Positions 37,649 to 48,019 of a stretch of DNA of 64,000 nucleotides are shown here, piece by piece. The DNA comes from an uncultured Methylomonas sp. (lineage in GTDB: Bacteria > Pseudomonadota > Gammaproteobacteria > Methylococcales > Methylomonadaceae). The position numbers and the translations under genes are program-made. Below the pieces are notes generated by a model. The model saw only the letters and a program-made list of their open reading frames with translations, did no database searches and had not been told where the DNA came from. How positions within the stretch are numbered: the first letter of the stretch is position 1; every line of letters starts with the position of its first letter. The stretch is from assembly GCA_936941155.1 (NCBI GenBank), contig CAKZJE010000048.1:1-64000 (forward strand), given 5' to 3'.

Positions 37649-37945
37649 ACGACTGGCAGTCCTTTAAGGCATAGTTATCTACACATCTTTAGTTTAAAAA
37701 GTGTTTATATATCAATTGGATATTGAAATATGTAGGTTGGGTTAGCTGCTTTTTTCGTCAGAAAAAAGAGCGTAACCCAACAAAGTGCGTCTATTTTAAC
37801 GCTGAATGTTGGGTTACGCTTATCTCGCTTCGCTCAATAATGCTAACCCAACCTACAAAAAATTCTTTATTATCAATGCTTTTGTTATAAAAACCATCAA
37901 ACTATCTTGTGTAGATACTTATGCCTTTAAGGACTGCCAGTCGTA
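37649..37945. repeat. GACTGGCAGTCC palindrome split by a mobile element
   Basis: The left half (CGACTGGCAGTCCTTTAAGG, ending at 37669) and right half (CCTTTAAGGACTGCCAGTCG, from 37924) are the two arms of one palindrome, separated by the 254-bp element. The shared CCTTTAAGG is the target duplication. Confidence 0.85.
37670..37923. mobile_element. MITE-like element, copy 1 (254 bp)
   Basis: The ends are CATAGTTATCTACACA and, inverted, CATAAGTATCTACACA (14 of 16 match). CCTTTAAGG is duplicated on both sides (37661-37669 and 37924-37932). Inside are nested inverted repeats: TGTAGGTTGGGTTAGC (37731) with GCTAACCCAACCTACA (37842), and GCGTAACCCAACA (37770) with TGTTGGGTTACGC (37807). No transposase is encoded. 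A second copy is at 47759-48004 in the same orientation. The element would need a transposase from elsewhere. Confidence 0.85.
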
Positions 37946-45614: not shown

Positions 45615-47750
45615 TTATTTTTCATACAGTTGCCAAACACCGTTTAAGCCTAATCCACTGTCGCGCCAGCCTAAAACGGTTTTCTGATCTTTGCGATAAA
45701 TCTCAGGACACGGTTTATCCGTATCAACTCCTGCTTCAATATCTGCAACCCATGCTTCCCAAGCCTGAATGTTGTCAGGCGCAAAACGCGGGTCTGTCAT
45801 TCTTCCTAATGCGTAAAGGGTTTCAGGCTCAATCCGTCCTTTCACTTTGATTGCCCCTAATCGCCGCACCACCAAACTTTCTCGCGCTGCTGTTTCTTTG
45901 GCAAAATCGCCTGCAATAATAATTTCCGTATTAAAAACCCGCGTTAAACTTTCAATCCGTGATGCTAAATTGAGCGGATCACCCAAAATCGCGAATTTTT
46001 TTATCCCGTCTTTGGGCCCTAAATTGCCTTTCACCACATCGCCTGCGGTAATCCCAATCCCCGCATTAATAATGGTGCTGATTTTATCAATCACATCAGG
46101 GGTTAAGACTTCCTTATATCGCGCCGCTACGGAAGAAAAAAAGTTTTTTTGTAATAACGCTAATTCCACAGCCCCTAACAACGCATTTTTATACGCCGCT
46201 TGTTCTTCGCCTTCTTCATATTCCCAGTAATAACAGACCATATCACCGACATAAGCTTCTAAAATACCGTTGTATTTATCTTGCAGAACAATCGAAGTTG
46301 CGCCTAAGTAATCATTCATTAAACCCATCACCAGCTCAGGTTTTTTGAGCAATCCCGTCACGGTGGTGTAACCTGCTAAATCACTCATTAACACCACAGC
46401 TTTGCAGTGTTTATTGATAAAAACTTCAGATCTTTCTAACGGCATTAATACGTCAAGCACTTGTTGCGGCACATATTCAAACAATAAATCCCCTTGCCGA
46501 AAACCAGATAACAGATGTACTGCTACCATTTGGATTGCGCCGACAACATAAGCAATCATCACCGCAGCAACTGGCCAAAGCTGGGTCAGAGGACTCACAA
46601 AGCACAGCGTGAGCATCAGTCCCAACAGTAACAAAGCCCCAAGCCATAATAAGCCTTGCGAAAAATAAGCCCCTAGCAATACACTCAAAATCGCGGCGCA
46701 AATAAACAAGGTAATGCGAGCAAGTTGGGGAGGTGTACGCGGAAAGTCTTGATTTAATAGCGTTTCTATCTCATCGACAATATATTGCGCACCCGGTGTC
46801 ACTAAGCGAGGGCCAAATAAAGCCGTTGTCATGGGAGTCACCATAATATCGCTGGATTCATTCGGCGAGGAGGTTTGTAAAATCACAACTTTGTTTTTTA
46901 ACAACGCCGCCGCTTTATTTGCCACCGCGTCATCACAAGAAGCTAATTGGCTTAATGGCAAAACCAATTGTTCGCTGCTCATATTGACTGTGTAAATCGG
47001 TTTACTCAAACGGATGCGCCGACAACGTTTATTGTTATCACACAACTCGTCCGTGCGATTTTTTGCATACAATGCAGGAATTTTTTCAGGAGCCAATAAA
47101 CTGGCTAATTGAAAAACCGCGTGATCTTCACTCATATCCAGCCAGCGGGCAATCGGTGTCGATTTCGTCACCAAACGATCACTCGCCACTAAGCCCGATT
47201 GAGGAATAGCCTCAGCAGCATCCCAGTCATACAGCAAAAAGTCTGGAAAATTATTATGGCTATTCAAATAAGGGGCAATTCTAAAACGACTGATCGCAGC
47301 TTTATTCATTTTTAACGGCGCGTTGCCAGCCTCACTGTTGCTAAGCTGGCAAGAATTATTTTTGCCGTTGCTCACGCTGCATTTTGGCTCTGACCAACGC
47401 GCTTGCCCATCATGCTCCAAACATACCGCATAAGGCATTCGCCCTTCTATTTCTTTAGAAACCTGCGCATCTAAATAAACCGCTTTTGCCCCTTGTGAAA
47501 TTAAGTGCTCAACCGCTCTTGCAAACAGCGGCAAAGACTGCATTCGTGACACCCGAAAAGGCACATCATCATCAAGCACCACAATGCCAGTATACTTCCA
47601 GCTGTGCCGCTGCTGATAAACCACAGCGGAATCGTGCAACCAATAATCAATTCGTGTGCCTAATGCGTAGTCAGTCAATATTCCGGCTAAACTGGCAAGC
47701 ACCATAAAAAAGAGTAGGTTTTTTTTATGGGCAAAAGGTCTAGGGCGCAT
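45615..47750 (-). CDS. CHASE2-domain adenylate/guanylate cyclase
   Basis: A 711-residue membrane cyclase. It has an N-terminal membrane helix (about 12-28), an extracytoplasmic CHASE2 sensor (about 30-335, including the GIVVLDDD start and SQGAKAVYLDAQV), three membrane helices (about 345-425), and a class III cyclase domain (about 455-640) with VLMSDLAGYTTV, YVGDMVCYYW, and FAILGDPLNLASRIESL. It would make cyclic AMP or GMP in response to an external signal. A C-terminal stretch of ~60 residues is not assigned. The second mobile-element copy lies just upstream of the start. Confidence 0.92.
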   Translation of the reverse strand: MRPRPFAHKKNLLFFMVLASLAGILTDYALGTRIDYWLHDSAVVYQQRHSWKYTGIVVLDDDVPFRVSRMQSLPLFARAVEHLISQGAKAVYLDAQVSKEIEGRMPYAVCLEHDGQARWSEPKCSVSNGKNNSCQLSNSEAGNAPLKMNKAAISRFRIAPYLNSHNNFPDFLLYDWDAAEAIPQSGLVASDRLVTKSTPIARWLDMSEDHAVFQLASLLAPEKIPALYAKNRTDELCDNNKRCRRIRLSKPIYTVNMSSEQLVLPLSQLASCDDAVANKAAALLKNKVVILQTSSPNESSDIMVTPMTTALFGPRLVTPGAQYIVDEIETLLNQDFPRTPPQLARITLFICAAILSVLLGAYFSQGLLWLGALLLLGLMLTLCFVSPLTQLWPVAAVMIAYVVGAIQMVAVHLLSGFRQGDLLFEYVPQQVLDVLMPLERSEVFINKHCKAVVLMSDLAGYTTVTGLLKKPELVMGLMNDYLGATSIVLQDKYNGILEAYVGDMVCYYWEYEEGEEQAAYKNALLGAVELALLQKNFFSSVAARYKEVLTPDVIDKISTIINAGIGITAGDVVKGNLGPKDGIKKFAILGDPLNLASRIESLTRVFNTEIIIAGDFAKETAARESLVVRRLGAIKVKGRIEPETLYALGRMTDPRFAPDNIQAWEAWVADIEAGVDTDKPCPEIYRKDQKTVLGWRDSGLGLNGVWQLYEK

Positions 47751-47758
47751 ATTTTAAG

Positions 47759-48004
47759 CATGGGTATCTACACATCTTGAAATTATAAAGTTGTTGTATA
47801 TCAATATATTGATATGTAGGCTGGGTTAGCTGCTTTTTTCGATAGAAAAAAGAGCATAACCCAGCAGCGGGTGTTTTAAAACGCTGAATGCTGGGTTACG
47901 ATTATTTCGCTGTCGCCCAACCATCTAACCCAGCCTACAAATAATTCTTTATTATCAATAAGTTTTAATAACATTGATGTTAAAAACTTGTGTAGATACT
48001 TATG
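47759..48004. mobile_element. MITE-like element, copy 2 (246 bp)
   Basis: The left end is CATGGGTATCTACACA and the inverted right end is CATAAGTATCTACACA. The internal arms TGTAGGCTGGGTTAGC (47815) and CTAACCCAGCCTACA (47925) match copy 1 except for paired changes. The flanks ATATTTTAAG and ATGTTTTAAG may be an imperfect 10-bp target duplication. It lies between the cyclase start and the next gene's stop. Confidence 0.8.
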
Positions 48005-48019
48005 ATGTTTTAAGCAGAG

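Follow-up and report, generated by a model that had tools for sequence, protein, structure and literature searches.

Pairs of REPs nested in elements that are mobilised by transposons are a less common arrangement. The GTAG REPs comprise subfamilies with complementary stems and occur as head-to-head dimers (Di Nocera et al. 2013, PMC3733652), and compensatory changes are common in the hairpins of REPINs (Bertels and Rainey 2011, PMC3116915). Base changes matched across a stem are thus to be expected of REPs. TnpA-REP of E. coli and others binds only one strand, the one with GTAG, in its folded form, and the tag, some unpaired feature and the pairing of the stem are important for this; in one TnpA-REP system changes at the second and third stem positions were without effect (PMC8266576).

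The window analysed here is a stretch of 64,000 nucleotides from an uncultured Methylomonas sp., and it holds two copies of a MITE. When the sequence was re-read, both copies, their coordinates and their arm sequences were exactly as an earlier note on this DNA had quoted them (Table 1). The four arms of copy 1 read TTGGGTTA (37737-37744, 37773-37780, 37809-37816 and 37844-37851), two per strand, and those of copy 2 read CTGGGTTA (47821-47828, 47857-47864, 47891-47898 and 47926-47933), so that the copies differ by four T/A to C/G arm changes. The core folded much more stably than its own shuffles, with a z of about -10 for copy 1 and of -7 to -9 for copy 2. Both copies are intergenic. The genes on either side of copy 2 are both on the minus strand, and the copy lies 15 bp past the end of the upstream ORF. 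A search of the window against Rfam returned tRNA only, and neither MITE copy matched a curated family. The probable left TSD of copy 2 reaches the predicted start codon of an adenylate-cyclase-like gene on the minus strand (45615-47750). The insertion lies 8 bp upstream of this codon and may cut the gene off from its ribosome-binding site or promoter. The host is most likely a methane oxidiser, since a gene of the AMO/pMMO subunit A family is present in its genome.

Table 1. Position of the two MITE copies and of their parts in the window.
Feature	Position	Strand	Basis
MITE copy 1 (subfamily A), TIRs CATAGTTATCTACACA / TGTGTAGATACTTATG	37670..37923	+	whole-element similarity
Left TSD of copy 1, CCTTTAAGG	37661..37669	.	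exact 9-bp duplication
Right TSD of copy 1, CCTTTAAGG	37924..37932	.	exact 9-bp duplication
Core of copy 1, head-to-head GTAG-REP dimer (REPIN), T-type stems	37732..37856	+	same core without MITE and in relatives
REP 1 of copy 1: GTAG tag, arms 37736-37744 / 37773-37781, bulged G	37732..37781	+	
REP 2 of copy 1: arms 37808-37816 / 37844-37852; GTAG tag 37853-37856 (minus strand)	37808..37856	-	
MITE copy 2 (subfamily B)	47759..48004	+	whole-element similarity
Probable left TSD of copy 2, ATATTTTAAG, 1 mismatch to right TSD	47749..47758	.	
Probable right TSD of copy 2, ATGTTTTAAG	48005..48014	.	
Core of copy 2, head-to-head GTAG-REP dimer (REPIN), C-type stems	47816..47938	+	
REP 1 of copy 2: arms 47820-47828 / 47857-47865	47816..47865	+	
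REP 2 of copy 2: arms 47890-47898 / 47926-47934; GTAG tag 47935-47938 (minus strand)	47890..47938	-	

The core, of 125 bp in subfamily A and 123 bp in subfamily B, starts with GTAG and ends with CTAC. One REP consists of GTAG, GTTGGGTTA, GC, an apex, GC, a bulged G and TAACCCAAC, and a second such unit on the opposite strand completes the head-to-head dimer. The 3' bulged G was present in 190 of 238 well-paired REPs. Judged by its sequence, with an unpaired GTAG tag and two inverted REPs, the core is a REPIN of the GTAG REP superfamily. A search of the host's own genome (4.26 Mb, 124 contigs) with the tag-plus-arm motif GTAGGNTGGGTTA gave 138 matches, 69 forward and 69 reverse; among the matches listed, almost all were paired in inverted orientation at a distance of 92-117 bp, and many lay outside the MITE. 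GTAG...CTAC dimers also occurred solo, and by eye these showed no obvious target duplication. The arms thus lie in a MITE, as had been proposed, and are not specific to it, since the same GTAG REP dimer occurs without one. The same REP dimers were further seen in a second MITE, with TIRs CACTGCCATTAAGTTAAG / CTTAACTTAATGGCAGTG (L180-L182, L093 and L094), an arrangement that was also found in another genus (L158, L159 and L177). Of 60 related genomes, the host's own not being counted, 28 were matched by a covariance model made from 17 cores. The GTAG tag was part of the search pattern for the relatives. Their loci are the best-scoring matches of the model, which biases them towards hairpins that are intact; the MITE copies, collected by similarity over the whole element, are free of this bias.

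The dimer agrees with the GTAG REPs of Di Nocera et al. (PMC3733652) in the GTAG tag, the 9-bp stem, the complementary stem subfamilies and the association with RAYT, as well as in the head-to-head order with a spacer of 20-100 bp and in the nesting in palindromic elements, known from GTAG-15 of A. variabilis. It differs from them in its stem GTTGGGTTA, in its long apices and in its carrier, which is a MITE with DDE-type TIRs and 9-bp TSDs. This stem and the string 'methylo' are both absent from the text of that paper, figures aside, and searches of the literature for the exact sequence gave unrelated matches only. With the REPIN (PMC3116915) it shares the inverted REP doublet, the conserved ends, the variable spacer, the compensatory hairpin changes and a proposed dependence on RAYT, whereas the element measures 105-125 bp here and 71 bp between the two 16-mers of REPIN group I, and most copies here lie inside a MITE. 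The GTAG tag and a conserved unpaired stem feature are common to this REP and to the E. coli REP/TnpA-REP system (PMC8266576); the feature is one bulged G here, known from sequence, in contrast to the AA/GC mismatch of E. coli.

In the own genome, subfamily A comprised about 29 full copies (91-100 percent identity) and subfamily B 12 (89-100 percent identity), with further MITE fragments at contig ends. The TIR form CATA..TATCTACACA was common to both subfamilies. The TSD measured 9 bp in 37 of 41 copies and 8 or 10 bp in two more, giving 8-10 bp in 39 of 41. Most copies were inserted at the centre of a palindromic repeat, GACTGSCAGTCC-TTTAA-GGACTGSCAGTC, with 189 half-matches across the genome. 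This repeat, a palindrome of about 34 bp (ACGACTGSCAGTCCTTTAAGGACTGSCAGTCGT), is the preferred target of the MITE and its IS, and surrounds copy 1 (37649-37669 and 37924-37944). Insertion mid-way in a repeated palindrome is likewise known from REP-targeting IS (Tobes and Pareja 2006, PMC1525189), but the target palindrome GACTGSCAGTCCTTTAAGGACTGSCAGTC is a different repeat, and here the element itself carries the REPs. At one contig end (C120:53019) the TIR of the MITE adjoins a 265-residue fragment of a DDE_Tnp_1 / IS4-like transposase. The element is therefore most likely a MITE of an IS4-like (DDE) transposon. The IS4-type matches, the same TIR and the constant TSDs of the MITE resemble an IS4-family IS with its MITE; the family name and rank are provisional, because the contig end truncates the IS and the score of the fragment stays under the cut-offs of the curated families. 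Two TIR matches (C22:25696 and C31:250109) were considered as an autonomous IS and dismissed as chance matches. At four other contig ends (C11, C33, C45 and C121; L065, L067, L069 and L071) TIRs with the variant subterminal sequence TATCTACACAAAATAGCTTGACAGT lie about 70-110 bp from the end, and they read as assembly-broken copies of the MITE or of a related element. One MITE copy (L061, G000:C47:37605-37857) has its GTAG...CTAC core in the opposite orientation to its TIRs, as recombination between the outer REP arms would produce. When named genomes were scanned for the MITE core, a single record matched, a MAG from LaPlata that belongs to the same genus.

The earlier note had reported that each arm change between the two copies is matched in the other arm, and had proposed that all genomic copies be examined with a covariance model. 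Across 29 genomes, 252 REP units were compared. Four stem types accounted for 210 of them, each with its matching arm: GTTGGGTTA (TT) in 148 units, GCTGGGTTA (CT) in 28, GTCGGGTTA (TC) in 26 and GTCGTGTTA/TAACGCGAC, which has one T.G wobble, in 8. Relative to the commonest stem, matched changes outnumbered single ones, with 77 paired double changes and 23 single changes among the 252 REPs; after thinning to one unit per genome and stem the values were 26 and 19. The most variable positions were stem positions 2 and 3, with matched changes in many genera, and at position 3 nearly every thinned change (15 of 16) was double and paired. Counts of G.T versus A.C mismatches were dropped as an RNA-versus-DNA test, the independent events being too few.

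Unpaired arm changes did not occur at the rate of the flanks. In the 29 type-A copies 0 of 36 arm sites were variable, against 43 of 123 flank and spacer sites (p = 2.7e-6), and none of the 8 GTAG tag sites varied; in the 12 type-B copies the values were 1 of 36 and 32 of 120 (p = 0.001). Changes confined to a single copy, which should mostly postdate the insertion, affected 1 of 72 sites in the arms, 45 of 243 in the flanks or spacer (p = 8e-5) and 18 of 64 in the TIRs. The REP hairpins are thus protected after insertion, unlike the ends of the transposon. Either selection at the site or conversion among the many REPs of the genome would have this effect.

Association with RAYT was seen in one relative, G022. 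There a RAYT gene (L215; NF047646, E = 2.8e-58) stands between a dimer, located 24 bp upstream of the start codon, and a REP arm that follows the stop codon immediately, and another Y1 transposase (L214) lies just downstream of a dimer. In G017 (L112) a dimer is followed by what by eye appears to be a RAYT start; an ORF scan of this locus found no open frame of at least 90 residues, and the RAYT-like sequence may be a remnant. Of the 30 RAYT loci taken from relatives, most had no such REP nearby. This REP flanks neither of the two RAYT-like genes of the own genome (on C34 and C32), from which the enzyme responsible for spreading the dimers may therefore be absent or lost. The gene on C32 (positions 276-854 of L096, G000:C32) encodes 192 aa, scores below the NF047646 cut-off, is flanked by palindromes of type AGACCTGACAGGTTTTAAAAACCTGTCAGGTCT and adjoins a copy of the ACTGGCAGTCC palindrome.

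Several explanations of the matched arms were weighed. Two copies could represent one historical event, because no MITE with arms intermediate between A and B was seen among the copies of the own genome. This absence would suit the view that no covariation exists, a single ancient event or chance accounting for the difference between the subfamilies and the arms being mere conserved repeats. A tree from apex and spacer only did not unite the C-type dimers of the genus in one clade (p-AU 1.5e-6) and required a minimum of 3 state changes, which rules out the A/B split as a single event. Since each row has no more than 81 columns and dimers have visibly recombined, the claim is limited to at least two independent four-arm switches and gives no exact number. 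The polyphyly of the C type, together with the excess of double over single changes across 29 genomes, removes the doubt, and with matched changes at positions 2 and 3 in many genera the absence of covariation is most improbable. The covariation claim is thus true, with four-arm switches on at least two backgrounds, and it supports the view that the folded form matters. The arms had been drawn as pairing outer with outer and inner with inner, in one long cruciform, and this is the predicted minimum-energy fold for both RNA and DNA. Most dimers are homodimers, which satisfy both pairing schemes, and cross pairing may therefore still form. Among 76 distinct dimers, however, five heterodimers from five other genera (G008, G013, G024, G028 and G046) pair perfectly within each REP, with outer-outer and inner-inner pairing broken; several near-perfect ones agree with them. 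The opposite pattern, with perfect cross pairing, occurred in 4 of the 76: three G022 dimers, in which a T.G wobble is conserved, and L142, whose two REPs share a G.A mismatch and which is the only dimer that clearly favours cross pairing. Because the five heterodimers keep within-REP pairing only, the single REP hairpin is more likely to be the covarying unit, and it is quite unlikely that the cruciform is the selected structure.

The folded form could also matter as RNA, the dimer being transcribed from neighbouring genes and its fold selected at each site for protection of mRNA 3' ends, termination or processing. The hairpins are kept while the TIRs and flanks decay, suggesting a benefit at the site, copy 2 lies just past an ORF end, the predicted fold is very stable, and REPs are often plausibly transcribed downstream of genes (PMC3733652). 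Against this, Rfam matched neither copy. Moreover, both REPs of G022 carry their wobble as T.G when read on the GTAG strand. Any one transcript would then have a G.U in one REP and an A.C in the other, an indication that the GTAG strand is what is conserved, although this is a weak argument from a single lineage. We consider the RNA explanation unlikely, and infer that any RNA role would be secondary. Copying of the arms from each other, by quasi-palindrome correction or conversion among the four arms and among dimers during replication, would need little or no selection on folding. It accounts for four arms changing together and has one clear example, REP 2 of L091, in which the apex (400-520) TTATCTCGCATAGCGAGATAA is a perfected palindrome of the TTATCTCGCTACGCTCAATAA of L079, as from a template switch. 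The inverted core on C47 with its implied outer-arm recombination, the chimeric dimers L179 and L182, and an 8-bp tandem duplication at an arm of L042 point the same way. Copying alone, however, leaves unexplained the heterodimers with within-REP pairing, the conserved bulged G and GTAG tags, and the identical stem set in 29 genomes; it probably contributed, and as the sole explanation it is doubtful.

We regard as probable the whole explanation in which a REPIN resides in an IS4-type MITE and its pairing is kept by RAYT recognition of the folded strand. The DDE transposase would move the MITE through its TIRs, and the REP hairpins, which bracket a RAYT gene in a relative, would have a separate history. 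RAYT, a HUH transposase, would bind the folded GTAG strand, the tag, the bulge and the pairing counting for more than which base occupies some positions of the stem. Paired stems would be selected for, and this, together with arm copying and recombination between dimers, would then give stem types that change on both sides together. Recognition by RAYT is the likeliest cause of the pairing, with arm copying as a helper, because TnpA-REP reads the folded GTAG strand and because stem positions 2 and 3, at which changes had no effect in one such system, are the most variable here. Between the causes offered in the earlier note, RNA function or copying during replication or transposition, the connection to transposition is thus retained, in a form that it had not named.

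It is unlikely, yet worth stating, that the REPIN is not a passenger and that its hairpins give the insertions a selected function, or a second mobility through the action of RAYT on single-stranded DNA. If true, the element, spread as a MITE by a DDE transposon, would be a composite with dual mobility, its cargo hairpins being better preserved than its transposon ends. REP dimers have usually been studied as free elements; here one family is found in two unrelated MITE families of one genome. This provides a natural experiment, in which the flanks and TIRs serve as an internal clock for measuring how strongly the REP hairpin is selected. The identity of the base is free at stem positions 2 and 3 and the pairing is not, which is directly testable with RAYT proteins.
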